Source: a virus
Direction: 5' to 3' (one strand)
Length of the DNA: 32,609 nucleotides
Virus record (IMG/VR): IMGVR_UViG_3300017824_000035
Coordinates: 1-32,609 of that record
Shown: positions 8,093 through 32,609 of the stretch, in pieces
Numbering within the stretch: the stretch's first letter is position 1
Layout: each line of letters begins with the position of its first letter
The notes under the pieces: model-generated
What the model saw: the letters and a program-made list of their open reading frames with translations, nothing else
What the model was told of the DNA's origin: nothing
Database searches by the model: none
Translations under genes and position numbers: made by a program

Positions 8093-8896
8093 TTACTTAC
8101 AATTCCAACTATGTAAATATTTGTGTTTTGCTAATGTTTCTACTATGTTATCTGGCATATCAATTAATTCACCCAACAACAAATTTCCAATAGTTAATCT
8201 TTTATCGTCAAAGTCGTATGGAATTTTTTCCTGTACCTGAGTATAAAATTTAAACATTCTACGCATCTGAGTGTTCTGTGTACTCACAGTATTATATACT
8301 CCTTGTCCAAACCACATAAACAATGTGTTACGCATCAGTGTAGTACATTCTATTTGATCAGGAGTAATATCTAAATCATTATCTAGATATACTGAATAAA
8401 AAGATTTACCCACATGTGGATATGCCATATATAACTTTCCTGGCTCTCGAGTAATTGTAAAATGATCAAGTGCAGAGTTCGGTAGTGTTACCCCGGCATC
8501 TCCATCACACATAAAATAAATTGTTGAACTATTCAGTTTGTTTTGTAAAAATTCTAAATGATGGATTCTGTAATTAAAGTCTCTAAGCACTTCATATAAT
8601 TCAGAATCATTTTGTTCTGCGTAATTGTGTAATTCTACAAAATCACTATGCAACACATTAAGGTCGTCTCCCAGATTTTTTTCTGGCATTCTGTCAGCAA
8701 CAAAATTTTTAATATCATTTAGTTCAGACAGAATATCCTGTTCAGTTTCTCCAAATCCGTAAAATTCTTTTCTGCTGATTAGATTGTTTTCCTGACTTTT
8801 CATTCTGTTGTAGAAAAGTCTACCGTGTTCTGTATCGTAAATTTTGTATGTTAGTGTATAGGATTTTTCTTTTCCAAAGTGTATATCAATTAACAT
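8093..8896 (-). CDS. Unrecognised 267-residue protein in the gp46/47/55 operon
   Basis: I do not recognise this protein. It is soluble, with no signal peptide or membrane segment. Residues 1-50 look like beta strands (KEKSYTLTYKIYDTEHGRLF), 50-120 are helical and acidic, and 120-200 are mixed, with YFMCDGDAGVTLP and YSVYLDNDLDITPDQIE. The C-terminal part carries TLMRNTLFMWFGQGVY and QMRRMFKFYTQVQEK. Its ATG overlaps the 3' end of gp46 by 11 bases, so it is translated from the same mRNA and is the last gene before two terminators. Operon membership suggests a role in DNA metabolism or late regulation. The two aspartates in LDNDLD could bind metal, but no catalytic pattern is complete. Function left open. 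Confidence 0.8.
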   Translation of the reverse strand: MLIDIHFGKEKSYTLTYKIYDTEHGRLFYNRMKSQENNLISRKEFYGFGETEQDILSELNDIKNFVADRMPEKNLGDDLNVLHSDFVELHNYAEQNDSELYEVLRDFNYRIHHLEFLQNKLNSSTIYFMCDGDAGVTLPNSALDHFTITREPGKLYMAYPHVGKSFYSVYLDNDLDITPDQIECTTLMRNTLFMWFGQGVYNTVSTQNTQMRRMFKFYTQVQEKIPYDFDDKRLTIGNLLLGELIDMPDNIVETLAKHKYLHSWNCK

Positions 8897-12675: not shown

Positions 12676-13605
12676 ATGCCAAGCGGAAAAGATTACTTAA
12701 AAGGATTAATAGGCGGTGTAGGTAATAACCTATTAGGCAAAATACCGGGCGGAACAACAGTTACAGGTGCAATATTAGGCGGATTGTCTGATGCAGATTT
12801 TTATTCATTCTTTTATGATGGTAATGCCGGTCCTAGTAGGAATCCAGGTAGTAATTTGCTTTTTGGTGCTAGGCAATTAAGTGAGCAACAATTAAAACAA
12901 CAGTTGGGCCAGCAAAGTAATCAGGCCGCAAGTTCAACAGCAATTAATCCAAGTGAAGGACAAGGATTTACATCAAACTTTGATTGGAGAGCGAGACTAA
13001 GACCAAAGGCCGGAGGTGCTAAAAGATTTTACGGAGAAGACAAAAACTCTGTTATGCAACCTATTAAGTCATCAGGCGGTTTAGTTTGGCAGTACACTCC
13101 ACAAATTTATGTATCAGCATCTGCAGAATATGATCAACAACAGATGCAGGGGATGAATTATCCTATTAATACATATCAAATGTCAACACCACCTAGATTA
13201 ACAGTAGTATCGACATTCTCAGTTAATAATATAGACGAGGGCAGGTATTTTGTGGGATTGATGCAATTTGCCAGAGTAGTAACTAAATCTTTTTATGGTG
13301 ATCAATCGGTTGCTAACGGAACATTTGGTACCCCGCCTCCTGTAATGTTATTTGAATATTTAGGTGATCACGGATTTAACAAAGTTCCTGTAGTTGTATT
13401 GTCTTATTCAATTGAACTACCGCCCGATGTTGATTATGTTCCTGTAGAAATAAAAGTAGGTAACGAAAATACTACAACGTATGTACCAACAACTTCCACA
13501 GTTACTTTTGATTTATACCCAACTTACACACCACATAAATTGCGTAAAAACTTTAATCTCGATACATTGAGAAATGGCAAAGCATACAAGGACGGATATA
13601 TTTAA
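12676..13605 (+). CDS. 48: Baseplate tail-tube cap protein, gp48-like
   Basis: In T4, gp48 caps the baseplate hub and is the platform on which the tail tube grows. The likely start is the ATG at 12676 (MPSGKDYLKG; 309 residues), because AAGGAG lies just before it and the late promoter lies between this codon and the more upstream ATG at 12640. The N-terminus is Gly-rich and hydrophobic (KGLIGGVGNNLLGKIPGG). A Gln/Ser-rich linker follows at about 70-105. The C-terminal part from 145 is beta-rich, with PPPVMLFEYLGDHGFNKVPV and SYSIELPPDVDYVPVEI, the segment typical of gp48/gp54-type tube proteins. Its stop overlaps the gp53 ATG. The family is well supported; gp54, a related cap protein, is the alternative. 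Confidence 0.8.
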   Translation: MPSGKDYLKGLIGGVGNNLLGKIPGGTTVTGAILGGLSDADFYSFFYDGNAGPSRNPGSNLLFGARQLSEQQLKQQLGQQSNQAASSTAINPSEGQGFTSNFDWRARLRPKAGGAKRFYGEDKNSVMQPIKSSGGLVWQYTPQIYVSASAEYDQQQMQGMNYPINTYQMSTPPRLTVVSTFSVNNIDEGRYFVGLMQFARVVTKSFYGDQSVANGTFGTPPPVMLFEYLGDHGFNKVPVVVLSYSIELPPDVDYVPVEIKVGNENTTTYVPTTSTVTFDLYPTYTPHKLRKNFNLDTLRNGKAYKDGYI

Positions 13606-13904
13606 TGGCAGATTTTCATAGAAGTGATAGTTTTTTAAGAAATGCAGGAACATTTGAAGGATTTCTGGATATAAATACCTTACCTAAAATACCAACAGAT
13701 TCTTACGAAATAGATTTTAAAATCAAAGATGCACATGTAGGTAGACCGGATATTTTAGCAAATGAATTATATGGTACTCCCAGACTATGGTGGGTATTCG
13801 CACTTAAGAATCCTGATATAATTAAAGACCCTCTCAATGATTTCAAAGCAGGAGTTGTAATAAAAATACCATCGCCGGAAACAGTCAAAAATATGATGGG
13901 CTAA
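13605..13904 (+). CDS. 53: Baseplate wedge protein gp53
   Basis: A small wedge subunit that in T4 joins neighbouring baseplate wedges around the hub. The 99 residues include the family signature HVGRPDILANELYGTPRLWW followed by VFALKNPDIIKDPLNDFKAG, a LysM-like fold with the conserved pair of tryptophans. T4 gp53 is 196 residues, so this is a short form keeping the core domain. Translation is coupled to gp48 through the TAATG overlap at 13603-13607. The next gene starts 2 bp after its stop. It sits in the order 48-53-hub-5, as expected for baseplate centre genes. Confidence is high because the signature is distinctive. Confidence 0.88.
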   Translation: MADFHRSDSFLRNAGTFEGFLDINTLPKIPTDSYEIDFKIKDAHVGRPDILANELYGTPRLWWVFALKNPDIIKDPLNDFKAGVVIKIPSPETVKNMMG

Positions 13905-16557: not shown

Positions 16558-18600
16558 ATGCCTAAATGGTTTTATGTTTTAGATTCCATGAAAGCCACAT
16601 ATAGCAATCCGTTTGCTCAGAGGAACTCCACCGAAAGATTCTGGGGTATCTACATTGGTGTTGTAGACTTTAATAAAGATGCTAGTAGAACCGGTAAAGT
16701 TTCTGTAAACATACCTGAACTAAACAAAGATCCCACAGAAAAAAACTTGTTTGAGTGTATGTATACATCTCAATTTTACGGTGCATCAGATCCTAATTTA
16801 GTAAGAGATGATGATATTACATTGGATGAAAATTCTTTACATTCTTACGGCATGTGGACGCCACCGCCTGATGTAGGAAATACTGTTTTAGTAGCATTTG
16901 GAGATGGGCTTCTATCTAAACCTTTTATAGTAGGCCACACGATGCCAATACCTTTTAACAATGCGGTACCAGGTATTGCCGGTGGTCCAAGTTTTCAAGG
17001 CGGGCCGTTTAATACACCCACAGTAGAAAAAAATAATTACGATACAGATACAAAAAACAATCTTAAATTAAGACCAATATATCACGATTTTGCAGAAACT
17101 ATAACAAAACAAGGACTTATAAACGATCCACTAAGAGGAGCAACATCCAGTAGTGCAAGAAGAGAAACACCAAGTGAAGTTTTAGGTATATTAACAAAAG
17201 GACCAAGAGACGAAAAAGGAAATTCTATAGGACCGGGTCATCAATTTGTAATGGATGACAATCAAACTAATTCCAATATTAGATTGAGAACAGGTGGCGG
17301 CAATCAGATATTATTAGATGATACAACCGGGTGTATATATGTTATTAATAAAAATGGTACAGCATGGTTTGAACTAGATAAGGACGGTAACATTAATATC
17401 TTTGGCGAAGGCAGTATGAGTCTTAGGGCAAAAGGAGATTTTAATTTACGAGCAGATAAAAATATTAATTTAGAAGCAGGTAATGATATCAATATGAAAG
17501 CCACTGGCGATAATGATGCAGGAGGTTACAAAGGAATATCAGGTAAATTGGGTGCCTTGGGTGTTCCACCTTTAGGAACAGGAGGAAATTTAAGATTTCA
17601 TTCAGCCGCTGATACATCCATACATGCAAATTTAAATACACAAATAACTGCCAATGCAGGAGATATGCAACTTAACTCTGCAGGTAGATTGACATTAACG
17701 AGTACAATAGGTGCGGCAATACAATCACAGGGTTTTACTACAGTACAAGCCTCAGGTAAAGTTGATGTCCTAGCCGGTGGCGCCGCAACACTTTCTGCAG
17801 GTGGCGTAACAAACATTTTTGGTGCAAGTATTGGATTAAATAATCCTGGTGTTGTTCCAACGCCTGATCTTATTCCGGCTGTACCGGCACCTCAACTAGG
17901 CGGCACCGAAAAACCCGATCAATCATCTGCTCAACCAGAATACGACAGAGAGTCTGAGAACCCAATATTAAATGGTGGCCAACGTCCTGAAAAAGGACCT
18001 TCAGTAAATACTATTGTAGGTAAGTTAATCACAGCAGAACCTTATATAGGCCATGGCCAGTATGATCCTAGCTCAGAAGATCCTTCCAGTATAGAAGAAG
18101 ACGAGACTGTAGAGAATGAAACATTGGAAAACCAAGTGGACCCAACAGACGACACACCAGCAGATGCTGACACTCCTGAAGGGACAAAAATAGGTAAAGG
18201 ATTTGCAGAAGCAAAAGATAAATTTGGAGAAATTAAATCAGTTTACGATGAATATAATGCAACACTAAGTAATTTTATGTCATTAAAAGATGTTAATTTA
18301 GCAAGTTTGGAAGGTATCACTAAAGTAGCAGAAACATTAGGTATTGCTATTCCTCCTTTTAGGATTCCAACAACTAATTCTATAATGCAAAAAATTATAG
18401 GGCAAAGTAAAATATTAACAGATTTAGAAGCCAAACTAAAACAATTTTCTTTAGATGGATTAGGGTTACCTCTTGATTTGCAAGATACTGTTGTAAAAGG
18501 TATGAAGGGTGACATTAGCGGTGTAATCAACGAAGTAACAGGTGGTAAGGCAGACGAATTTAAAAACGCAGTAAAATCTAAAATTCAGGGCGGTGGATAA
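16558..18600 (+). CDS. 5: gp5-like hub spike protein without an internal lysozyme domain
   Basis: Central spike of the baseplate that punctures the outer membrane. Residues about 25-135 form the gp5/VgrG-type OB domain (FWGIYIGVVDFNKDASRTGK and YGMWTPPPDVGNTVLVAFGD). Residues 225-330 carry the start of the beta-helix needle, with GGGNQILLDDTTGCIY and repeating NINIFGEGSMSLRAKGDF-like strands, continuing to about 420. A Pro/Glu/Asp-rich linker (430-540) and a helical C-terminus (550-680) follow. T4 gp5 has a lysozyme domain between OB fold and needle; here the two are joined directly, and a lysozyme-like ORF comes next. Start: ATG with GGAGG. The helical tail after the needle is unusual and might bind the next protein. 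Confidence 0.85.
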   Translation: MPKWFYVLDSMKATYSNPFAQRNSTERFWGIYIGVVDFNKDASRTGKVSVNIPELNKDPTEKNLFECMYTSQFYGASDPNLVRDDDITLDENSLHSYGMWTPPPDVGNTVLVAFGDGLLSKPFIVGHTMPIPFNNAVPGIAGGPSFQGGPFNTPTVEKNNYDTDTKNNLKLRPIYHDFAETITKQGLINDPLRGATSSSARRETPSEVLGILTKGPRDEKGNSIGPGHQFVMDDNQTNSNIRLRTGGGNQILLDDTTGCIYVINKNGTAWFELDKDGNINIFGEGSMSLRAKGDFNLRADKNINLEAGNDINMKATGDNDAGGYKGISGKLGALGVPPLGTGGNLRFHSAADTSIHANLNTQITANAGDMQLNSAGRLTLTSTIGAAIQSQGFTTVQASGKVDVLAGGAATLSAGGVTNIFGASIGLNNPGVVPTPDLIPAVPAPQLGGTEKPDQSSAQPEYDRESENPILNGGQRPEKGPSVNTIVGKLITAEPYIGHGQYDPSSEDPSSIEEDETVENETLENQVDPTDDTPADADTPEGTKIGKGFAEAKDKFGEIKSVYDEYNATLSNFMSLKDVNLASLEGITKVAETLGIAIPPFRIPTTNSIMQKIIGQSKILTDLEAKLKQFSLDGLGLPLDLQDTVVKGMKGDISGVINEVTGGKADEFKNAVKSKIQGGG

Positions 18601-19187
18601 TGGCAGATAATATATTTGATACAGTAGTTGAAAGACTGGAAAGTAAAGGTATAGACGTATACATAGACGGGCCTACCATAATTTATATTCACAAAAAAAC
18701 AGGCACTAAACTTGTAGAATTTATAGATGGATTAGGTCCTACAGGGCAAAGATTGGCATTAGAAGCAAACTTAAAGAAAGCAATTAAAGACATACAAAAT
18801 TTAGTAAATGTGCCACTTAACCAAAACCAGATTGGTGCTCTAGCAAGTTTTGTATCTCACATCGGCGTGGATAATTTTGCAAAAAGTAAAGTATTAAGAG
18901 CATTAAACGAAAGACGATATGAAGCAGTACCAAAACTCATGCAGGCATTCAGGGTAGGTAGAGTAGGTAAAAATCCTAGAGCCACCGTGAGAGCAGATTA
19001 TGTTTCAAGAAGAAAATATGAAGCAGAACTATTTGCAACTCCTGAGCATTTAAACTGGCAAGTAGAATTGGATGATGTTGAGGCAACTTTATATCCTGCT
19101 CAAAGAAGTTTAAATTTTGCGGAATTACGGGCAATTCTAAGACTTGCTAAAAAACGTGCCTACAATAAATTAGGAATTTTCTTTTAA
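18600..19187 (+). CDS. Lysozyme-like (GH24) protein lacking the catalytic lobe
   Basis: A 195-residue protein whose residues 72-145 match the C-terminal lobe of T4/P21-type lysozymes (GH24): LNQNQIGALASFVSHIGVDN, then SKVLRALNERRYEAV and a final RRKYEAELF. The N-terminal lobe should carry Glu, Asp and Thr in an EG...Y.D..G..T.GYGH pattern. Instead residues 1-70 read as a different domain (VYIDGPTIIYIHKKTG) without that pattern, so enzymatic activity is doubtful. The ATG overlaps the gp5 stop (TAATG at 18598-18602). Since gp5 here lacks a lysozyme domain, this ORF looks like the split-off domain kept as a structural partner. Its 3' end overlaps the converging small gene by 3-4 bp. Fold similarity is moderate; loss of activity is inference. 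Confidence 0.65.
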   Translation: MADNIFDTVVERLESKGIDVYIDGPTIIYIHKKTGTKLVEFIDGLGPTGQRLALEANLKKAIKDIQNLVNVPLNQNQIGALASFVSHIGVDNFAKSKVLRALNERRYEAVPKLMQAFRVGRVGKNPRATVRADYVSRRKYEAELFATPEHLNWQVELDDVEATLYPAQRSLNFAELRAILRLAKKRAYNKLGIFF

Positions 19188-20025: not shown

Positions 20026-20055
20026 GTGTTTATTAAAACTATATTTAACTATTAT

Positions 20056-20063
20056 GATAAATA
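20056..20063 (+). promoter_or_regulatory. Late promoter octamer GATAAATA for gp25-gp6
   Basis: With the T4 spacing (-13 to -6) the first transcribed base is 20069, the A of the gp25 ATG. The upstream in-frame ATG at 20054 overlaps the octamer and would not be on the late mRNA. A leaderless message is predicted; no ribosome site is present. Confidence 0.68.
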
Positions 20064-20068
20064 CTTAT

Positions 20069-20443
20069 ATGGCAACATTGTTCAAAGGTTTCAGTACAGT
20101 AGATAAAAATAGGGCACCTTATACCCTTACCGATACAAATCTTATAAAAAGAGATTTGCTAAATCACTTCTATACCAAAAGAGGTGAACGAGTTATGAGG
20201 CCTAATTTTGGTAGCATAATTTGGGACATGTTAATGGAACCAGAAACACCAACATTACAAGAAGATATAAAAGATGATATAAAAAGAATTGTTGATTTAG
20301 ATCCCAGAGTGGAACTGGAAAACACAATTTTATACATAACTGATCAAAGCATACGAGCAGAAGTTGTAATAAAATATTATAACATAGATCAAGCAGAAAC
20401 TTTATTTTTAGAGTACAATAGAAGAAATGCAGAGGAATATTAA
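20069..20443 (+). CDS. 25: Baseplate wedge protein gp25
   Basis: Wedge protein of the gpW/gp25 family, which in T4 starts sheath polymerisation by acting as a sheath-like nucleus. I place the start at the ATG at 20069 (MATLFKGFSTVDKN; 124 residues), because the late octamer sits before it; T4 gp25 is 132 residues. The family signature KRGERVMRPNFGSIIWDMLM is complete, including the conserved E and R. The C-terminal beta segment (RAEVVIKYYNIDQAETLFLEY) is also present. Its stop overlaps the gp6 ATG (TAATG). It heads the 25-6-giant gene operon, so its expression sets that of the main wedge proteins. High confidence in identity; the leaderless start is inference. Confidence 0.92.
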   Translation: MATLFKGFSTVDKNRAPYTLTDTNLIKRDLLNHFYTKRGERVMRPNFGSIIWDMLMEPETPTLQEDIKDDIKRIVDLDPRVELENTILYITDQSIRAEVVIKYYNIDQAETLFLEYNRRNAEEY

Positions 20444-23400
20444 TGGCATTAGTAAATAGACAGAATAATTTATTTGCGGCAGAAGACTGGAAAGTTGCAT
20501 ATAAGGCCTTTAGTGAAGTAGACTTCCAAGCATACGATTTCGACACTATGAGAACCAGTCTCGTAGAATATGTCAGAACGAACTTTCCAGAAAACTTTAA
20601 CGATTATATTGAAAGTTCTGAATTCATTGCAATTATAGAATTATTGGCATTCTTAAGTACAAGTTTAGCATTTAGAATGGATGTTAATACTAGAGAAAAT
20701 TTTCTAGAAACTGCAGAAAGAAGAGACTCTGTTTTTAAACTTGCAAGAATGCTGGGTTACAATCCCAAGAGAAATATTCCAGCAAGTGGTCTTATGAAAA
20801 TTACTGCTGTTAGAACAAATGAGCCCTTAACAGATAGCCAAGGAAATCAATTATCTAATCAAAATATTTTTTGGGACGATGCTAACAATCCAGACAGTTA
20901 CGAACAATTTATAACAGTACTAAATGCATCTATGGGATCTACAAATAGATTCTCAGCACCAGTTAAATCAGGTAAAGTCGCAGGAATAAACACAGAACAA
21001 TATGAAATTAGTACACCTATAACGTCTCCTATTGCACATGCATTTACAATAAATGTAAACGGCATAACTAGAAATTTTGAAATAACAAATGGAGATTTCT
21101 TTGACAACCAATTTTTTTATGAAAAACAACCTGACCCAACAAATAATTTTGGACTGTTCTATCGAAACGATGGATTAGGATTATCCAGTAACAACACAGG
21201 TTTCTTTTTGTTATTTAAACAAGGACAATTGGCATTTGAAGACTTTAATTATGAAGTACCATTGCAAAATAGATTGCAGGATATAATTAAAAAGAATATT
21301 AATGAAACTGATGTTTATATTCAGGAAGTCAATACACAGGGTGTTGTACAAAATCAATGGACAAAGATACCAAATACTGTTGGACAGACTTTAAATTATA
21401 ACAGTAAGGCACTTAATACAAGAAATTTATATGCTGTAGAAAATTTAAACAATGACGGCATTAGAATTAAATTCCCTGATGGAAACTTTGGAAATGTGCC
21501 TAGTGGTATTTTTAGAGTATGGCATAGAACAAGTGATGGTGAAGTATTTTCTATACATCCTGATGATGCTAAAAGTCTAAATGTTTCTATACCATATGTA
21601 AATCAAACTGGTGAAGCATATTCACTAACACTTACATTTGGTTTAGAATCCACAGTAAACAATAGTTTACCCGCAGAAAGTTTACAGAATATAAAACAGA
21701 GAGCACCGCAAACATTCTATACACAAAATAGAATGGTGTCAGCACAAGATTACAATGTGTTTCCTTTAAGTCAAACAACAAACATCTTAAAACTTAAAGC
21801 AACAAATAGAACACATGCAGGACATAGTAGATATATAGATATAAATGATCCTACTGGAACATTTCAAAGTGTTGAAACATACACAGAAGATGGATATCTT
21901 TACAAAGACAATGATCCTATAACAAAGGAATTAACCGTAAGTGATAACAATACGCCTGCAGAAGTTGTAGATAATACTATCGTAAACTACTTAAAAGAAC
22001 AAAGATTAAACAATGTAATATATGACACATTAAGAGAAAAATGGAACAATTTCATACCAACTAAATTCCAAACAGATACTCTTAATATTAGATGGAAACC
22101 TTTACCGGTAGCAACCGACAGCACAACAGGATATATGACTGAAACATTCAGTAGTGCAGATACTGTGGTTATGGTAAACAATACAGAATCAACCAGAGTA
22201 TTTCAAGAAAATACTTTTGTTAAATTTGTTGACCCCACAAATATTGCAAACTACAAATGGGTAAGAATTACCGGCGTCCAAAACAATGGTGCATTGTCTA
22301 GTGGATTAAGCACAAGCATAGGCCCGTGGACACTCAGTGATCGTGTTAATTCCGATTGGAGAGCTGATGAAGTAATTGCAAGTTTAAGAAAAACGTTTAC
22401 AGCCGCTGAACAAGTACTTATAGAAAATGCCTTAAGCAATAAAAGTACATTTGGTTTAGGTTTTGATTTAACTGATCAATCTTATTATATTATTTCAAAT
22501 GCAGACTTACTTAAAACAGGAAGTTTAGGTATTCAAAACGCAAAAGATACAACTTTATCAGGATTAGATAACAGTTGGTTAATGTTATTTGAATATACTC
22601 CTATAAACAATAGTAGTTACAAATATAATGTTTCTATAAGAGGTTTATCTTACGTTGTTCAAAGTGCAAACGATTTAAAATTTTATAATGTAAAATCTGT
22701 TAAAGTAACAGATAACACAACCCAAGCAGTTAAAGATAGCATAACATTTAATACACTAAATTATAAACCAGGTGTAACAGAAACATTTGTATGGGCAGAT
22801 TCGAATGACGATAATGTTGCTGATGCATGGCAAAGTTTAGATAATTCAGCATATTATGATCCTAATGGTTTGAGAACAAATATTGCTTTAAGGACTAGAG
22901 ATATAAAATGGTTTGATGTAAATGTTACATGGCAAAGCACATTTGGATTGATGAGAAATGACACAGTAACTGATGATCATACTCCTGCAAACATTTTGAC
23001 TTTAAATAGATTTGTAAATGCGGCAAACGTTTCTTTAAATCCGTATTTTGATGACGGTAATATATCAACAAACAATGTTACATTATCTAATAATGACGGG
23101 CGTATTTCAAAACTACCAAATAATTTAAACTTTACATTTGATAATACAACCTTTGGGTATAATATATTAGACGAAAACGGAAATATTACATACAAACAAT
23201 ATAACAATAACACCGGACTAACAGAAATATATCACGGTAATAGTACTATATTTACATATGGTATAGACGGATTGACCGGCAACGCAAGTGAAGTAGGAAG
23301 AATGTTCCTAACAAATGCGAATGCTTCAGCAGGTACAGGCACTCTAACGTATGATGAACTTGATGATAATTACCACTTATTTGCATCAGACACAACAGGT

Positions 23401-24609
23401 GCTATAAGCAGAGATAAAATTTTAGTTGAATACAAATCAGCAAAAGATAGATTAGATACAGATATTGTTTATGAAATTTCTGATATATTTAAATATTCAG
23501 ATGGATATACAGATAATAGAAAAGTTAAAGTTGCACCAATAGATTCAGACGGAGATTTAGTACCGGATAAACCGTTCCAGTTTAATGAATTCGTATCAAG
23601 TACAGATCTTATAATATTTGAAAATTACACAGACTTTGACGGTTATGTATACGATCGTCCGGTAAGTGGTGTAATATTGGATTGGAGAGGAGAAACAGAT
23701 TGGGACAATACTCAAGCCAGTGGTAACCCTGGGACTATATCCCCTATTAGTTATTCAGACCCAGTGGAATGGAGTACAGTAAATTATATCCTAGTGGACA
23801 CTCTTGCACTAGCAGAAAAATTTGAAAATACAGCAAATCAATATTTTGGTATAAAAATTTATGTAGTTGAAAATGAAAAATTCTATATAATGACAAGAAG
23901 TAGTACTGACGCAGATAGTATTAGTTTAGTAGAAACTACAGATTGTTTTGTAAAAGTGGGTAGAGGTAAAGACCAAAATACTAGACTACCTGATATAAGA
24001 CCATGTGTAATGAAATGGGATCACAAAGCACCAAATGATGTAAGAATAGACCCTAGTATTAGTAATGTTGTTGAGATGTTAGTATTAACAAATTCCTACT
24101 ACACAGAAATACAAAAATATTTAAATGTACCGGGTACACCATATCCTTTAGCACCTACGAGTGATCAACTTGCAAACGAGTTTCAAAATCTAGAACAATT
24201 TAAAAATGCAAGTGACACACTTGTTTATAAAAGTGCAAAATTTAAAAGATTATTTGGTGCAGATGCTGACGAAAGTGTACAGGCTAAATTCAGAGTAGTA
24301 AAACTTTCAGGTACAACTCTAAGTGATAATGAAATAAAAACTAAAGTTATTAGAGCATTTAATACTTATTTTGATGTAACTAATTGGGAATTCGGTGAAA
24401 ATTTTTATTTTACAGAATTAAGCAGTTATGTACATCAACAACTAAGTGGAATAATAGGAAGTATTGTAATTGTGCCTAAAACAAATTCAGGAAACTTTGG
24501 CGATTTATTTCAGATAAAAGCAGAAAGTAATGAATTCTTTGTTAATACTGCAAAGGTTTCGGATATAGAAATAATTGATAAAATTACTAAAACAACGTTG
24601 GCTAATTAA
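20443..24609 (+). CDS. 6: Baseplate wedge protein gp6, enlarged
   Basis: A baseplate wedge protein that in T4 dimerises and forms the inner ring of the baseplate. It has 1,388 residues, about twice T4 gp6 (660). Residues 1-115 are the typical N-terminus: SSEFIAIIELLAFLSTSLAF, then MDVNTRENFLETAERRDSV and LARMLGYNPKRNIPASG. The J-like core around 375-450 includes ENLNNDGIRIKFPDGNFGNV and AQDYNVFPLSQ. The C-terminus (about 1310-1388) has the expected AFNTYFDVTNWEFGENFYFT. The extra length lies between about 560 and 1230 and is beta-rich, Asn/Asp/Thr-rich and repetitive in style, similar in feel to the following giant protein. No frameshift is seen. Coupled to gp25 by a 1-bp overlap. Confidence 0.9.
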   Translation: MALVNRQNNLFAAEDWKVAYKAFSEVDFQAYDFDTMRTSLVEYVRTNFPENFNDYIESSEFIAIIELLAFLSTSLAFRMDVNTRENFLETAERRDSVFKLARMLGYNPKRNIPASGLMKITAVRTNEPLTDSQGNQLSNQNIFWDDANNPDSYEQFITVLNASMGSTNRFSAPVKSGKVAGINTEQYEISTPITSPIAHAFTINVNGITRNFEITNGDFFDNQFFYEKQPDPTNNFGLFYRNDGLGLSSNNTGFFLLFKQGQLAFEDFNYEVPLQNRLQDIIKKNINETDVYIQEVNTQGVVQNQWTKIPNTVGQTLNYNSKALNTRNLYAVENLNNDGIRIKFPDGNFGNVPSGIFRVWHRTSDGEVFSIHPDDAKSLNVSIPYVNQTGEAYSLTLTFGLESTVNNSLPAESLQNIKQRAPQTFYTQNRMVSAQDYNVFPLSQTTNILKLKATNRTHAGHSRYIDINDPTGTFQSVETYTEDGYLYKDNDPITKELTVSDNNTPAEVVDNTIVNYLKEQRLNNVIYDTLREKWNNFIPTKFQTDTLNIRWKPLPVATDSTTGYMTETFSSADTVVMVNNTESTRVFQENTFVKFVDPTNIANYKWVRITGVQNNGALSSGLSTSIGPWTLSDRVNSDWRADEVIASLRKTFTAAEQVLIENALSNKSTFGLGFDLTDQSYYIISNADLLKTGSLGIQNAKDTTLSGLDNSWLMLFEYTPINNSSYKYNVSIRGLSYVVQSANDLKFYNVKSVKVTDNTTQAVKDSITFNTLNYKPGVTETFVWADSNDDNVADAWQSLDNSAYYDPNGLRTNIALRTRDIKWFDVNVTWQSTFGLMRNDTVTDDHTPANILTLNRFVNAANVSLNPYFDDGNISTNNVTLSNNDGRISKLPNNLNFTFDNTTFGYNILDENGNITYKQYNNNTGLTEIYHGNSTIFTYGIDGLTGNASEVGRMFLTNANASAGTGTLTYDELDDNYHLFASDTTGAISRDKILVEYKSAKDRLDTDIVYEISDIFKYSDGYTDNRKVKVAPIDSDGDLVPDKPFQFNEFVSSTDLIIFENYTDFDGYVYDRPVSGVILDWRGETDWDNTQASGNPGTISPISYSDPVEWSTVNYILVDTLALAEKFENTANQYFGIKIYVVENEKFYIMTRSSTDADSISLVETTDCFVKVGRGKDQNTRLPDIRPCVMKWDHKAPNDVRIDPSISNVVEMLVLTNSYYTEIQKYLNVPGTPYPLAPTSDQLANEFQNLEQFKNASDTLVYKSAKFKRLFGADADESVQAKFRVVKLSGTTLSDNEIKTKVIRAFNTYFDVTNWEFGENFYFTELSSYVHQQLSGIIGSIVIVPKTNSGNFGDLFQIKAESNEFFVNTAKVSDIEIIDKITKTTLAN

Positions 24610-24611
24610 TA

Positions 24612-27600
24612 ATGGCAGATAAAATTTATAAAAAACTACCCGGAATTCTGCAGACTGATACAGTAAAGAATTTCTTTGAAGGCACAGTTGAGCAATTATA
24701 TAGCAAAGCAAATATAGAGCCTATTAGTGGCTTTGTGGGTAAGAAAACATCTAAAGATAAATTAGTAGATGGTACTTGGATATACGAAGAAGATTTAGAC
24801 AAACAGTATTATAATCTATTACCTACGGTAAACAATTTAAATGCAAATACTGGTGTAAGTGAAAATTTTATTTTTTACGATGAATTTATATCTATACTAA
24901 AAAATTACAATGTAGATGTAAATGAGCAAAATCAATGGTTAAGATCTGAATTCCAAACATTTTTACCACCAATAGAATTAAATAAATTTTTAAACTATCA
25001 AGAATATTATTGGGCTCCTGACGGAATTATTACTTCTATAACAGAAACTGTAGATGCTGATGCATCTAGAGTACCAGGTACATACACAATAGATAGTAGC
25101 AAATATACCACTAGTGGAAGTGGACAAGATGCAATAATATCTGTAGTAGTTTCTTCAGACGGATCTGCAAGAATCACAGTATCAGCAGAAGGATTATTTT
25201 TCTCTAAAAATGATACTATAACAATCAGTGATGCAAATCTAGGTAATGGCGGTGCTGTAGATATTACACTTACAGTATTGGAAGTTTTAAAATCTCCAAC
25301 AGCAATATCTATTTCTGGTAGTTTGTCAGCACCTATAAATGTTGATCGAGACATAATAGGAAAGAAACAGTATACTCCTACAGGCGGAACTGCATTTAAA
25401 AATGGTATGAAAGTAACATTTACCGGTGATTATGTTATTAGTAATTCCAAATATGTAGGGAAAGAATTTATAGTTGAAGGCGTAGGCGAAAGCATTGTAT
25501 TAGTGGCAGTGGATGTAAGTTATGCAAATGGTATTGCTAATCCACAAACAGGAAAGGATTATGTAGTATTAGGAAGAGGCTCAGCGAATAAAAATGCTTG
25601 GAGTAGAATTAACTTTTGGTATCACAAAGATAATTTTACAGATGCAGGAGACGAACTTCCGTCTAGGACACATAGAGCCAATAGGCCTATCCTAGAATTT
25701 GATAGAGATTTAGAACTTTTTAATGTAGGTGAAAACAGTAAAGGTAATGTTGATGTTAGTTCAACTTTACTGTATAGTGAAGTTGTAGGATTAGATGCGA
25801 GTAATGTTGATATAGATGCAATAACTATTGAAACAGGAACAAAATTAATATTCCCTAATGATGATGCTACTATTTCTGCAAATGTTTATGTTGCAACAGT
25901 TGATTCCGGAAATGCAAATGCAATTAGTTTAAGTGTAAGTGAAACACTAACAACAGGTGATACTGTATTTGTGTCGTCAGGCCAACTTGAAAAAGGTAAA
26001 GAATATTTTTATAAAAATGGCCTAGTACAAGCACAAACTAAATCTAAACTCAACCAAGCACCCTTATTTAATTTATATGACGATCAAAAACGATATTTAG
26101 GCGACACAACTATTTTTCCTAGTAATAACTTTAGGGGAAATAAGATATTTGGTTTTGAAGTTGGAACCGGAGATACCGATAAAGAATATAATTTGCCTCT
26201 GGCTTATAGAGCATTTAAAAATGCCAGTGAAATAAGTTTTGAAAATTTCATGGAGACAGAAGTCTATAACAATGTTGTTATAGGAAGTTCAGAACCTACA
26301 AATATTGAAGGATATTACTATTATAAATTATTAAGATCAGTCACAAAAACATCTAGTGATGGCACTGGTACTAGCTCATCGTCTGCTGTAATAGGAAAAA
26401 CTCCTGTATTTCATAATAATTTTAGAAGTCCACAATGGAAAAGTCAACAACGAATTGAAAAAATAATTGAAATTACCAGAACAATTTACGATAATTTTGA
26501 GCAGATATTTAATCTTGGTTGTAATGCTAGAACTGAAGAAAATTATCTAAATGGTATGAATATAAGAGTTAGGAAAAATGGAGACCTATTTCATGACTTT
26601 ACTTTTATAAACGACAGCACTAACGGCGATAAAATAGAAATTTTAAGAAAACATTTTAATATAGGTGACATCTTTGAAATTTCTGTATTTTCTAGAGGTC
26701 TAGACGATACCATAGATAATACCAGTAGGCATGAGATGCCTATAGCATGGGGCAATAATCCTTTCAAAGAAGAAATTACAAAAATTTCAGAACCTGAATT
26801 CTTACCACATTTTAAAAATTATATGGAAACACAACCTGGGTTTACAGGTGATGTTTTAGGTACAAATAATTACAGTTCTTTAAGTAGAGAAGAATTATAC
26901 GGTGTAGATATAGTTCAATCCAACACAGATTTAATTTTAGGTGCTTTTCTACTAGATGACCAACCACACAATATTATAGATGCTTTAAGATTTAACGGTA
27001 GTGAATACAGAAAATATAAGAAAAGATTTTTTAAAGAATTAGACAATTATTATAATTTAGTTGATTTCAATAATTTTTCTAACGAAGAAATATTAGAAAA
27101 AGTTTTAAGAAACTTGATTTCATTTAGTGTAGGAAGAAATGTATTTGGCGAAACATACATATTACCGTTCGGTGATAATTATCTCAAAGAATCATTAATT
27201 GTAAATGATATTACCTTGGGTTCCTACACCCTTTCAACAGCATTAGATTTAGACAAAGTAGAAAATAGTTTATTAGTTTACTATACAAGAAATAATGTTA
27301 AAAAATTAATGACTGTGGGTGAAGATTACACACTTACATATAGTCCCTTAACTGTGACATTTAAAAATTATACTCCGGAACTTTTAGATGAATTAGAATT
27401 TAAAATTTATAATTCACAAAGAGATAGTGTAGAATGTCCTGCAACACCTAGTACAATGGGACTTTATCCTTTACACACTCCAGGTATAATCAGTGATGAC
27501 ACATTCCAAACTTCACAAGATTTAATTGTTGGCCATGATGGCAGTAGGACACCTATTTACGGAGATGAAAGAGATCAAATCGTACTAGAATTTGAAAAAC

Positions 27601-30600
27601 GTATTTTCAATTCTGCCAAAGCAGAGTTCAGAGATACTGTTGATTATCCAGAACTTAATGCAATAGAAATAAGACAGGGTAGATGGAGACGTGAAAAACC
27701 AGAATGGAATCTATATCATGATTTACTTCAAACAAATTTTGAAAATTGGGTTATAGAAAACAAAGTAGATCCTATTGTAAATGAACATTACGATAATAAT
27801 AACGAATGGACTTGGAACTACAGAGAATCATTTACAAGTGGATCAATTGCATCTGGAGAGGGCACGATTCCAGGACATTGGAGAGGCTGGTACACATATT
27901 ATTATGATACAGTAAGACCTCATACACATCCTTGGGAAATGTTAGGTTTCTTTAAAAAGCCAAGTTGGTGGGACGACCAATATATCACCGTAACCTATAC
28001 AGATTATAGCAGTAAAAATGTTCCTATGTGGTCTGATCTAGAAAAAGGAATAATTAGACAGGGTCCTAGAGAAAATTTAACTAATGACATATGGAAAGAT
28101 ATATTAAATCCGTTTAGTAGAAAATCTAGAAATACTAGAATAAATCTATTAGAATACTTACCAGTTGATGAAGAAGGTAATTTGAAAAAACCTGTAGACA
28201 TAGTTAGCACAGGCGTAAGTACACTAAAAAACATATGGACCGAAACAGAACCAGATACCTCACAAGGATACAAAACAACAAGTTTCCTTTCCACAGATGG
28301 TTTAAGTGTACAATTTGATTCCACTCATAGATACATTACTAGTTATGATAATCCAAATTACAGCAGAGGATTAATAGACCAAACATTATCACCTACAGAA
28401 TTTAATTTTTTTGCAAAAACTTATAGATTACCAAATAATATTAATTTAAATACAGTAAGCAATGCAACATCAAATAACGGGCAAGTAAATGGAGCCAGTG
28501 CAATATTAGTAAACGGATTACCTTTACATAGTCCTATATCTACATCATATGAATATGACGACACATGGACATATGAATTAGGATTTGAGACAGCCGAAAG
28601 CAGAGCAAACGGAGACATTGCTCAAACAGATGAAAACGGTCTTACTTATACAGCAATACCAACAAAAGAGATGAGTAATACATCAGTGTGGGGAGATAGT
28701 TCAACACACTCAGGTATTATAGGTTGGGCATTTGATGGCTTACCTATTTATGGTCCATATGGTTACACAGACCCTATGGACAGTTCATCTGCAATTACAA
28801 ATATTAAAAGTGGATTTGTTTTAAAATCCGGTACTAGAAGCAGTGGCCCAGGCGGAGCACATACTGGTGAGTTTGTACAGGATTATGAATTAGGTTCAAA
28901 TGCAGGAACTAACGGATATGCAGACAGGTGGAATACAAGATACGGGTTTACACCCGATTCTCCTAGTACAGCAATTCGCTACTATGTAGCAACTATAGAT
29001 GATAACGATAAGCCAATGTTTCCTTATGCTGTAGGTGGGACAAAACCAGGCGTAGGAATAACATGGGAAGGGAATTATTATGCTGAAGTATTGGATATAG
29101 ACACAAATAAAAACGGAACTGCACCAACAAATTCTTCTGCAACGTTTGCCAAGAAAAGTGAAAAAACAAAAAGAAAAACCATAAGTGATGATGTTGCTCT
29201 TGATAGACCATGGACATTTGGTGATGGTGCACCAGTTGAAAATGCTTGGAAGTACAGTGAAGGATATCCTTTTGCTATTGCAGAACTGTTGTGTTTGTCT
29301 AATCCTGGTAAATTTGCTACAGTATTTAGTGACCCATCAAAGATCACAAAAGCATCAGCAAATTATAAAAAATATATCAGTACCAACACAAGAAAAAATT
29401 GGAAGTTTTTAGACACCAGTGATTTTGAAATACACGGTGATATAGACTCAAACGGAAATACAATCACAAATATTGGTTATACTCAATTTATAAACAGTTG
29501 GTTAAAGTTCCAAGGACTAGATGTAGTCAATAACTTTGTTTCAAAACTAAGAAATTTAAATGTTAAATTAGGATATAGATTTTCAGGATATATAGACAAA
29601 GACACAATGACTATGTCTATGGATCAATTCAGTACAACAGGCAGTAGTACAAATTTAATTATACCGCAAGAAAATATCACAGTAGATATTCATAATTCGC
29701 CTTATAAATCAAGAAACATATATCAGGGTGTAATAATACAAAAAACTATAACTGGTTATAGAGTAAAAGGCTACGATAAAAATTTAGGACACTTTAAAAT
29801 TTTAGAAAGTGATCTAACAGGAAGATCAAGTAAAATACAGGTAGGCGGAGAAGCACATCCTTACGTAGACTGGCAGGCAAACACATCATACAATAAAGGA
29901 ACAATAGTAAAATATAATGATGTTTATTATGAAGCAAGAGATTATATTCCTAAAGCAACGACCTTCTCTTCTTTGCAATATAAAAAGTTAAACAAACTAC
30001 CTCAAATAAATTTTAAAGAGGGTGCGGTTTATTTAGATACAACAGGTGTTATTAAAAAAGTAGAATATGAAACTGTATATAAAACAGAGCAAGATGTATT
30101 TGATTTCCTAATATCATTAGGCAGATATCAGAAATATTTAGGTTATACTTTTGGCGAATATGATATTGACATAAATGAAACTAGAGACTGGGTATATTCT
30201 GCAAAACAATTTTTATTCTGGTTACAGGGTAATTGGCAGACTAATAATACTTTAGAATTGTCACCGATGGCAACAAAGGTAACATTTGAAACAACAAAAG
30301 GATTCGTTGCTAAAATTAAACGTAATGAATTTAATATGTTTAATATAATGGATAAAGACGGTAAGTCTATAAATCCAAAAGAATGTGCTATAAACAGAGA
30401 AAATCTAAAAATTGAAATAATACCACCAACAGGAAAAGAAATTTATGCTATTTGTTTATTTGTAAGAGAAATAGAACATGCAATGGTATTGGATAATGTA
30501 ACAGACTTTGCTGATACATTATATAATCCTTTATATAATCAAAGACAAACAAGAATTAGAATTAAAGGTAATAAAACTGCAAATTGGGACGGAAGATTTA

Positions 30601-32609
30601 TCAGTGAAGGGTTTCTAATAGAAGGAGATTCCTTAAAACCAAATCTAGATAATTTAGCAGAAAGCATGGGTAGATACCATGAGCTTGGATTTATACCGGT
30701 AGAAAAACAAGTCTACGAAACAGCAAGAAATTTATTTGGTTATCAGGAAAAAGATTACTTAGCAGAACTTCAAATAGATGACGATCAACAATTTGAATTT
30801 TATAAAGGATTTATACAGAACAAAGGTACTAAAACAAGTTTAAGTAGAATAGGTAGAAGTAGTTCCATTATACAAGGCGATATGGACATATACGACGAAT
30901 GGGCAATTAAAGTTGGTTCGTTCGGTGACTTAGAAAATAATCAAAGTGTTGAATTAGCATTAGAGAAAAAAGATTTTGTACAGGACCCACAATTATTTAC
31001 TTTGTCCTTTCCTGAAGATACAACAGGAGTTGTAGATAGAATAGATGTTTTAAATAACAAACATCAATATTTTGATGTACCAGAAATACAAATTACACAA
31101 TCAACAAACGGCACCCAAGCAAAAGCAACAGCCGTACTGAATAGTGATGGATTACTTAGTGCTATTAAAGTTACAGAACAAGGCACAGGATACACTGATA
31201 CACCTGGGCTTACGATCATTACAGGTGAATTAAGTATTGGGAATATTTCTACAAGATTGGCCAGAGTAAATGCTAGATCTTCTAATACTATTACATCAGT
31301 TACCCAAGACACTAATGGTAATATAATTAGCAGTAGTGTTTCAAACATTAGTTCATTAGGCACAATTACTATTGCAGATAATTTTGGTTCTACAGCATCT
31401 TTTAATTTAAGTTCAATAACCGATGTTGCAAATATTACTACAGCAATTAATTCAGATGCAACAATTAATGCTAATATTACTGCACACACAATTGAAAATT
31501 ATATTTCTAATAGCGGAAATGTAATAATTAATAAAGGTCTTAAAATATCAGGTAATGACTTTACAATAGGTGGTAGTGCTAGTACGTTAGCAAATCTTAA
31601 TATTACAGCAGGTAGATATCAACCCAGACAAAGATATGCATTTAATATTGCAAATAATACTGTTAATTCTAATATTGTTGTTTCAGTAAATAATGTAAAT
31701 TTAACAAGTTCTGATTTTGAATTTGATGCAGGTGATAGATGGAAAATTACAGCACCATCTACAGTATCAGGAAATAGTAGTGCAACTTATGTAATAAACA
31801 CAGGTATTGTTAATTCTAATACAGTATTTGATACTAATAATATTACAGAGTACGATGGACAATATCCATTTATAGATGTTTATCTTAACGGAGAAAAAAT
31901 ATTAAATCCGGGATATGAAACAAGATATCAAGTAGACAATACAACCACAATTACTTTCCCAGATGTTGGTTTACTACCAGATAACCAAATACTAGCAGGT
32001 TCAAATGTTTATGTGGTTGAAAGAGCAACAATAGATTTAGAAGACACCTATCAAGGTGACTTACCTGGAAGTACACTATCTGTAAAAGCAATAACAAATG
32101 ATGATATAGCAGTACATGTAAAGAGTGTAAGAATATATGAAATTACACCTGATGCTAAAGATGACGAAGTCATATTAATTGATATAGACGATACATCAAG
32201 ATTTCTTAAAAAACCAAGTGGTGTAAGAGAAAGTAATTTATGGCCTAAAACAGGAAATGTTAGTTATAAAGGATTATTAGATAAAAAATACAATCCACTC
32301 CCAAATGCAGGATATGTAAACGAAAAAGATGTAAACTTTAGTGCATTTGATTTAGGCGGAGTTGCAGAACTGTTTGGCGACAATATAAGATTCAAACCCA
32401 CAGGTAATGATTTTATTCATGTTGCTAAAAGCGAAAACTTAGATTGGAATGTATATAAACTTAAACAAGCAAATAAAGGTAATATATCCTTTGTGGAACA
32501 AGACGATGCAACAGAAACTGCACAATTATATACTGAAAGAAGCCTATTTAATTATGTTGATAGTAATCAATTATTAGAAAATGACTTATCAAGATATTTA
32601 GACTATGCA
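24612..32609 (+). CDS. Giant baseplate/virion protein with YHYH-type domain (partial, gp7 position)
   Basis: An uninterrupted frame of 2,666 codons from the ATG 2 bp after gp6 to the window edge. I checked the frame at several points and saw no break. It begins MADKIYKKLPGILQTDTVKN. Its place after gp6 matches T4 gp7, but T4 gp7 has 1,032 residues. A YHYH-type domain lies at about residues 1290-1485: GWAFDGLPIYGPYGY near 1371, then ADRWNTRYGFTPDSP and FPYAVGG. The naming tetrad reads RYYV. The stretch from about 2180 to 2450 is low-complexity, Asn/Ile/Ser/Thr-rich and beta-like (NSDATINANITAHTIEN), as in fibrous proteins. No ribosome site is visible, so reinitiation after gp6 is likely. It is probably a peripheral wedge or spike component; exact role unknown. 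Confidence 0.8.
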   Translation, partial: MADKIYKKLPGILQTDTVKNFFEGTVEQLYSKANIEPISGFVGKKTSKDKLVDGTWIYEEDLDKQYYNLLPTVNNLNANTGVSENFIFYDEFISILKNYNVDVNEQNQWLRSEFQTFLPPIELNKFLNYQEYYWAPDGIITSITETVDADASRVPGTYTIDSSKYTTSGSGQDAIISVVVSSDGSARITVSAEGLFFSKNDTITISDANLGNGGAVDITLTVLEVLKSPTAISISGSLSAPINVDRDIIGKKQYTPTGGTAFKNGMKVTFTGDYVISNSKYVGKEFIVEGVGESIVLVAVDVSYANGIANPQTGKDYVVLGRGSANKNAWSRINFWYHKDNFTDAGDELPSRTHRANRPILEFDRDLELFNVGENSKGNVDVSSTLLYSEVVGLDASNVDIDAITIETGTKLIFPNDDATISANVYVATVDSGNANAISLSVSETLTTGDTVFVSSGQLEKGKEYFYKNGLVQAQTKSKLNQAPLFNLYDDQKRYLGDTTIFPSNNFRGNKIFGFEVGTGDTDKEYNLPLAYRAFKNASEISFENFMETEVYNNVVIGSSEPTNIEGYYYYKLLRSVTKTSSDGTGTSSSSAVIGKTPVFHNNFRSPQWKSQQRIEKIIEITRTIYDNFEQIFNLGCNARTEENYLNGMNIRVRKNGDLFHDFTFINDSTNGDKIEILRKHFNIGDIFEISVFSRGLDDTIDNTSRHEMPIAWGNNPFKEEITKISEPEFLPHFKNYMETQPGFTGDVLGTNNYSSLSREELYGVDIVQSNTDLILGAFLLDDQPHNIIDALRFNGSEYRKYKKRFFKELDNYYNLVDFNNFSNEEILEKVLRNLISFSVGRNVFGETYILPFGDNYLKESLIVNDITLGSYTLSTALDLDKVENSLLVYYTRNNVKKLMTVGEDYTLTYSPLTVTFKNYTPELLDELEFKIYNSQRDSVECPATPSTMGLYPLHTPGIISDDTFQTSQDLIVGHDGSRTPIYGDERDQIVLEFEKRIFNSAKAEFRDTVDYPELNAIEIRQGRWRREKPEWNLYHDLLQTNFENWVIENKVDPIVNEHYDNNNEWTWNYRESFTSGSIASGEGTIPGHWRGWYTYYYDTVRPHTHPWEMLGFFKKPSWWDDQYITVTYTDYSSKNVPMWSDLEKGIIRQGPRENLTNDIWKDILNPFSRKSRNTRINLLEYLPVDEEGNLKKPVDIVSTGVSTLKNIWTETEPDTSQGYKTTSFLSTDGLSVQFDSTHRYITSYDNPNYSRGLIDQTLSPTEFNFFAKTYRLPNNINLNTVSNATSNNGQVNGASAILVNGLPLHSPISTSYEYDDTWTYELGFETAESRANGDIAQTDENGLTYTAIPTKEMSNTSVWGDSSTHSGIIGWAFDGLPIYGPYGYTDPMDSSSAITNIKSGFVLKSGTRSSGPGGAHTGEFVQDYELGSNAGTNGYADRWNTRYGFTPDSPSTAIRYYVATIDDNDKPMFPYAVGGTKPGVGITWEGNYYAEVLDIDTNKNGTAPTNSSATFAKKSEKTKRKTISDDVALDRPWTFGDGAPVENAWKYSEGYPFAIAELLCLSNPGKFATVFSDPSKITKASANYKKYISTNTRKNWKFLDTSDFEIHGDIDSNGNTITNIGYTQFINSWLKFQGLDVVNNFVSKLRNLNVKLGYRFSGYIDKDTMTMSMDQFSTTGSSTNLIIPQENITVDIHNSPYKSRNIYQGVIIQKTITGYRVKGYDKNLGHFKILESDLTGRSSKIQVGGEAHPYVDWQANTSYNKGTIVKYNDVYYEARDYIPKATTFSSLQYKKLNKLPQINFKEGAVYLDTTGVIKKVEYETVYKTEQDVFDFLISLGRYQKYLGYTFGEYDIDINETRDWVYSAKQFLFWLQGNWQTNNTLELSPMATKVTFETTKGFVAKIKRNEFNMFNIMDKDGKSINPKECAINRENLKIEIIPPTGKEIYAICLFVREIEHAMVLDNVTDFADTLYNPLYNQRQTRIRIKGNKTANWDGRFISEGFLIEGDSLKPNLDNLAESMGRYHELGFIPVEKQVYETARNLFGYQEKDYLAELQIDDDQQFEFYKGFIQNKGTKTSLSRIGRSSSIIQGDMDIYDEWAIKVGSFGDLENNQSVELALEKKDFVQDPQLFTLSFPEDTTGVVDRIDVLNNKHQYFDVPEIQITQSTNGTQAKATAVLNSDGLLSAIKVTEQGTGYTDTPGLTIITGELSIGNISTRLARVNARSSNTITSVTQDTNGNIISSSVSNISSLGTITIADNFGSTASFNLSSITDVANITTAINSDATINANITAHTIENYISNSGNVIINKGLKISGNDFTIGGSASTLANLNITAGRYQPRQRYAFNIANNTVNSNIVVSVNNVNLTSSDFEFDAGDRWKITAPSTVSGNSSATYVINTGIVNSNTVFDTNNITEYDGQYPFIDVYLNGEKILNPGYETRYQVDNTTTITFPDVGLLPDNQILAGSNVYVVERATIDLEDTYQGDLPGSTLSVKAITNDDIAVHVKSVRIYEITPDAKDDEVILIDIDDTSRFLKKPSGVRESNLWPKTGNVSYKGLLDKKYNPLPNAGYVNEKDVNFSAFDLGGVAELFGDNIRFKPTGNDFIHVAKSENLDWNVYKLKQANKGNISFVEQDDATETAQLYTERSLFNYVDSNQLLENDLSRYLDYA

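Follow-up and report, generated by a model that had tools for sequence, protein, structure and literature searches.

The giant gene after gp6

Why a phage baseplate protein should carry a YHYH domain, and whether that domain still does what has been proposed for it, are the questions raised by the last gene of a viral contig of 32,609 bases, which was analysed over its whole length and is called the window here. The genes that define its setting are the following.

13605..13904, + strand: gp53-like baseplate wedge gene (phrog_7145, E 8.4e-20)
16558..18600, + strand: gp5-like hub gene (domain and PHROG profile matches)
18600-19187: lysozyme, a gene of its own beside the gp5-like hub gene
20054..20443, + strand: gp25-like baseplate wedge gene (PF04965, E 1.7e-10)
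20443..24609, + strand: gp6-like baseplate wedge gene, 1,388 aa, immediately before the giant (phrog_10646, E 0; phrog_219, E 1.1e-22)
24612..32609, + strand: giant baseplate ORF, ATG start, 2,666 residues up to the contig border, which truncates the gene at its 3' end

The giant frame starts with ATG at 24612 and runs to the end of the contig with 0 stop codons, and the chance of a random open run of that length at the GC content of the window is about 8e-89. The first-pass annotation had described a protein of at least 2,666 residues, more than 2.5 times the size of T4 gp7. Both statements hold, as the part within the contig alone is 2.58 times T4 gp7 (1,032 aa). The four complete sister genes encode 5,645, 5,568, 5,613 and 7,548 residues, and a giant frame is typical of the gene slot after gp6.

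Upstream, the order is gp53, an 882-aa virion protein, the gp5-like hub, the separate lysozyme, gp25 and gp6, followed by the giant. In T4 the order is 53, 5, 6, 7, and in the window, too, the giant is the next gene of the wedge operon behind gp6. T4 gp5 differs in that hub and lysozyme are not separate genes, whereas they form two genes in the window (16558-19187). For three further ORFs (780, 271 and 267 aa; 3656-5998, 639-1454 and 8093-8896, - strand) the PHROG search gave nothing at E up to 0.001. Phage PA5oct has the same gene order as the window, and in its record gp6 and the giant are marked ESI-MS/MS. Together, gene order and the PA5oct homologue bear out the baseplate assignment made earlier from the sequence, and a baseplate location of the window giant is well supported. 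By analogy with PA5oct, the giant would also be present in the virion.

Two conserved blocks form a backbone

Comparison with other giants divides the protein into two blocks, and several smaller features lie within them or just beyond.

24612..28211, + strand: N-block, residues 1-1200
27171..27419, + strand: small beta domain, residues ~854-936 (VIA-align 2 on the N-block model)
29208..31226, + strand: C-block, residues 1533-2205
29871..29939, + strand: CBM_5_12-like stretch, residues 1754-1776
30798..30842, + strand: FYKGFIQNKGTKTSL, residues 2063-2077, like the gp7 FYxxKG motif (weak lead)
31182..31481, + strand: beta-type low-complexity stretch that follows a GxGY repeat also present in cyanophage giants

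Both blocks are conserved in the giants of PA5oct, GAP32, 121Q, SCTP-2, Atu_ph07, Phosso and Vibrio 2.275.O. PA5oct gp355 (3,857 aa, a virion structural protein) aligns over window residues 4-1197 and 1530-2209 as collinear blocks. The window giant belongs to the jumbo-phage giants of PHROG 10938 (phrog_10938, E 5.5e-251) and shares with them both homologous blocks and the place next to gp6, on its downstream side. PHROG 10938 and 4406 annotate such giants as 'head and packaging', yet the gene lies in the baseplate operon after gp6. Long beta-type low-complexity stretches had also been noted; the lowest entropy is indeed found at residues ~2190-2290, but the remainder of the protein is ordinary.

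The CBM_5_12-like stretch scored 22.4 bits, below the curated cut-off of 26.2, and matches at E up to 0.01 occurred in 5 of 10 C-block members. A sequence search of the PDB gave no match for the whole protein or for the YHYH alignment, and one weak row for the N-block. For the C-block it listed chitinases and deacetylases at E 0.016-0.36, with a pair of tail proteins at 0.66-0.93. The AF2 model of the N-block (pLDDT 83.9, pTM 0.74) contains the small beta domain, which resembles fibre-docking domains of the P1 baseplate, the T7 gp17 N-terminus, CBA120 TSP4 and a 602-residue T4 baseplate chain. Its VIA-align 2 matches range from Z 9.7 (9vzk_T, 77 residues, rmsd 2.0) to Z 6.2 (5iv5_AC, 71 residues, rmsd 2.4).

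Whether this backbone is that of a true T4 gp7 homologue enlarged by insertions is, in our judgement, an evenly balanced matter, and one compatible with everything proposed below for the YHYH domain. The gene stands directly after gp6 as in T4, the motif FYKGFIQNKGT resembles FYSTKG of gp7, and cyanophage giants of the equal slot match T4 gp7 around FYSTKG (hhalign 88 and 93.7 percent). Against the cyanophage-type gp7, the stretch at residues 2063-2077 reached an hhalign probability of 9.7 (E 0.0033). However, hhalign of the N- and C-blocks against T4 gp7 itself found nothing (probabilities 0.1 to 0.9), nor did the C-block subregion (0.2). In the fold comparison the docking domain of the N-block model alone was matched, other parts being barely covered; T4 gp7 and TssF-like chains are absent among the matches listed, which carries no weight either way. 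We therefore regard the protein as working in the place of gp7; in its own sequence, only a KGT motif hints at membership of the T4 gp7 family.

Giants after gp6 and YHYH domains in phage baseplates are already known (P-SSM4 gp7; PMC7824862 and PMC7029224). P-SSM4 gp7 (7,312 aa) is like the window giant in its slot after gp25 and gp6, its YHYH domain and its GxGY repeats; unlike it, its backbone cannot be aligned with the N-block and its YHYH domain falls in another tree group. According to PMC7029224, gp7 is absent and replaced by VrlC. Cyanophage-type giants (L016, L292; P-SSM4 gp7 among them) show a profile match to T4 gp7, and P-SSM4 encodes VrlC in a gene of its own, which is at odds with that statement.

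A YHYH domain without its tetrad

Between the two blocks lies an insert with the YHYH domain.

28212..29207, + strand: seam insert, residues 1201-1532, in place of 12-34 residues in relatives without YHYH
28440..28994, + strand: YHYH domain (PF14240), residues 1277-1461 (E 4.6e-20, 72.8 bits, cut-off 25)
28647..28658, + strand: YTAI, residues 1346-1349, in the place of the lost YHYH tetrad (alignment)
28707..28709, + strand: His1366, the conserved histidine retained (alignment)
28734..28736, + strand: Asp1375 of DGxPIYG, retained in all distinct aligned sequences covering the position
28977..28988, + strand: RYYV, residues 1456-1459

The first-pass annotation had proposed a YHYH-like domain near residue 1371, and the profile search run on the protein agrees with it; a second search placed PF14240 at 28440-28994 with E 1.1e-23 and 78.3 bits. 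It had also reported that the naming tetrad is absent, with RYYV in its place. The absence is real, but the location has to be moved, since RYYV aligns to the YAYF or YCYF found in cellular members too and is ruled out as the tetrad site. Cellular members have YHYH or YHHH about 20 residues ahead of HSP..G.A.DGxPIYG, and there the window reads YTAI. Because the domain passes the curated cut-off without the tetrad, we regard it, on sequence grounds, as a tetrad-less relative of the PF14240 family and not as a canonical member.

The underlying alignment holds 103 viral and 85 cellular rows (numbering as in the protein plus 2), with the same-contig copies L017-L021 and L037-L046 and also L001 left out. 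The two tetrad histidines (HxH) were scored by motif together with a reading of L221, as alignment columns alone hide intact copies through gap placement. HxH was present in 75 of 78 cellular rows and 3 of 102 viral rows, and was missing from the window (0/1) and from the three rows of bacterial bins that resemble phage contigs (0/3). No histidine was found at the aligned tetrad positions of the cyanophage-type group (0/76 and 0/77 distinct sequences). In all 21 distinct sequences of the window lineage, H1366 and D1375 are kept, as are G1371, G1376, P1378, I1379, Y1380, G1381, G1419, D1424, N1441, T1447, P1448, P1471 and G1475, these and D1375 being fixed in cells too. The loss reaches beyond the tetrad: residues of the cellular consensus are replaced in the window at E1327, P1352, P1368, R1397, L1437, G1442, G1453 and Y1455 as well.

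In the structure model of the domain, the usable part spans about residues 1290-1469 (ten-residue means 66-96); its flanks are loose, and the overall pLDDT is 68.3. Searches with this model against solved structures gave 0 rows at E up to 0.001 in Foldseek and 0 of 242 chains at Z 2 or more in VIA. A viral structure library returned 13 rows at E up to 0.001, six without a name and seven named as YHYH, structural or baseplate proteins. Two of the named rows are YHYH proteins from giant viruses of eukaryotes (a Megaviridae sample and ChoanoV1), which shows that among viruses YHYH is not confined to phages.

The seam has two states

We measured the seam with profiles of the N-block, the C-block and YHYH in the window, 79 loci from the backbone query and 15 further loci. 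In every row with both blocks placed, the seam consisted either of 12-34 residues without YHYH or of 318-445 residues with YHYH; L265 and L277, with no C-block in the locus, and L272, in which the N-block ended early, were not placeable. PA5oct gp355 has 16 residues at the seam and no insert, and PF14240 was found in none of the seven records of PA5oct, GAP32, 121Q, SCTP-2, Atu_ph07, Phosso and Vibrio 2.275.O. In L228 and L229 two frames each encode part of the N-block, and the second of them includes a YHYH seam of 403 residues. This split lies at about base 9385 in contigs from different metagenomes and may mean that the gene itself is split, or else reflect an insertion or a frameshift.

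On a tree of 86 rows (29 with YHYH, 57 without) a single change suffices, on a branch with support of 100, and the nearest row without YHYH is PA5oct. This tree was built under a quick model, has several long branches, and omits six short C-blocks and the rows missing either block. The one change looks like a single capture, by which an ancestor of the window lineage would have acquired the insert. The two-state seam in relatives of the window giant is new; neither it nor the tetrad loss was described in the results of a search of the open literature on YHYH, with subscription papers and preprints outside its scope. Among the papers listed, only PMC7824862 and PMC7029224 dealt with the domain, the others being judged by their titles and the first lines of their abstracts. 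Other insertions were observed as well: PA14 and GLEYA-like domains lie in a long second insertion region of the 7,548-aa giant (L012 and L020), and the N-block of L269 is about 430 residues longer than that of the window ahead of the seam.

Among the 29 YHYH giants the tetrad histidines are intact in six and not in 23. The intact copies read FHYH, DHYH or LHYH (L215, L221, L230, L011, L012 and L219, of which L012 and L219 are one contig). One histidine is left in L225 and in L228/L229, and none in the branch of the window. Other contigs are repeated as well (L127 and L213 are L007, L128 is L010), and after removal of L212, L012 and L229 the tetrad is intact in 5 of 26. Free parsimony asks for at least two changes on the tree, and four losses are counted if the tetrad was never regained, a number made uncertain by weak support at several nodes within the window lineage. 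L250 (frame 6920), which has no seam insert, carries a YHYH with an intact tetrad elsewhere, at residues ~3440-3527 near the end of the frame as far as its contig extends.

Origin of the domain

Close YHYH relatives are carried by 13 viral contigs. For a careful domain tree 61 of 187 rows were kept, six being excluded by name and the others by identity. The window lineage (17 rows) groups with Planctomycetota proteins (98/96, 99/89); this grouping depends on four cellular sequences. The 23 cyanophage-type rows stand apart in a group of their own (100/99). A joint clade of these 40 phage-type rows, a group named after the tree had been seen, was rejected at a cost of 22.96 log-likelihood units (p 0.0049). 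Nine cyanophage-type rows considered for the window lineage were rejected, as their likeness comes from shared C-end repeats. The Planctomycetota proteins L047, L055 and L098 (open frames of 468-766 residues) share the domain core with the window and are the nearest group in the tree, but they keep the YHYH or YHHH tetrad. As the tree is unrooted, we only infer that the domain passed from cell to phage.

YHYH had been called better known from cellular secreted proteins. This understates its presence in marine T4-like phages, where it is common and already published (PMC7824862 and PMC7029224): 460 of 50,697 records in a phage collection contain PF14240. Of these, 454 bear the name Synechococcus phage, Cyanophage or Prochlorococcus phage, five are named Marine and one Actinomycetia. 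An S-BM3 protein annotated as peptidase S8 (L032), outside the baseplate slot, keeps YHYH and groups with cellular rows. Three rows from bacterial bins (L049, Sphingobacteriales; L103, Lewinella; L117, Planctomycetaceae) have a cyanophage-type YHYH without tetrad, and two of them, L049 and L103, can in addition be aligned with the gp7-type N-terminus; all three are probably misbinned phage contigs.

What the domain may do

We favour, as the probable explanation, a baseplate wedge protein that displays a captured surface-binding YHYH domain, probably non-hydrolytic. A very large wedge protein would fill the slot after gp6 in a T4-like tail module, with the two blocks as its backbone and a small fibre-docking domain within the first. 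Its ancestor would have gained, once, a YHYH domain at the block seam, akin to secreted bacterial YHYH proteins and nearest to those of Planctomycetota. The fold core has been retained, but most descendants, the window among them, no longer have the two histidines that the tetrad contributes to the proposed zinc site. Most likely the domain is now a module displayed on the baseplate that contacts the host envelope and is not a metal hydrolase. Surface binding is plausible, and with the putative metal-holding residues lost the domain probably holds on to the cell surface and does not cut it.

Iyer et al. 2021 (PMC7824862) predicted YHYH of jumbo phages, fused as here to tail or baseplate proteins, to be a tail-associated Zn hydrolase with a site of three histidines and an aspartate; such an enzyme would help to breach peptidoglycan. 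That the window domain still acts in this way seems to us distinctly improbable. When the four conserved positions are equated with that site, which is our reading of the paper, two of its histidines are missing in the window and only H1366 and D1375 remain. The same pair is broken in the majority of seam copies and lacks any histidine in the cyanophage-type group. The minority of intact seam copies and the intact YHYH of L250 speak for the enzyme, as do H1366 and D1375, whose fixation may point to catalysis or to metal binding at another site. That the insert serves only as a structural spacer or a surface for assembly within the baseplate, making no host contact, is also unlikely, if somewhat less so. 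Conservation of the fold core while the proposed site was lost fits such a role, as does the fixed seam position. However, relatives and jumbo phages manage with 12-34 residues, so assembly does not generally depend on the insert, and PMC7029224 names YHYH, among the domains of structural operons, alongside those for carbohydrate binding and recognition. A displayed binding module remains our preferred reading.

More tentatively, and with rather less confidence than we have in that reading, the trees suggest that phage baseplates recruited cellular YHYH at least twice, once in the cyanophage-type gp7 and once in the window lineage from a Planctomycetota-like secreted protein. The zinc site would then have decayed repeatedly while the fold was kept, so that a putative enzyme became a module for binding. 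If this is true, relatives with intact, one-histidine and empty sites are living intermediates. As some sisters have the tetrad histidines at one seam of one protein and others lack them, the published zinc-hydrolase prediction can be tested on close relatives, and the window lineage shows giant baseplate proteins growing by discrete insertion.
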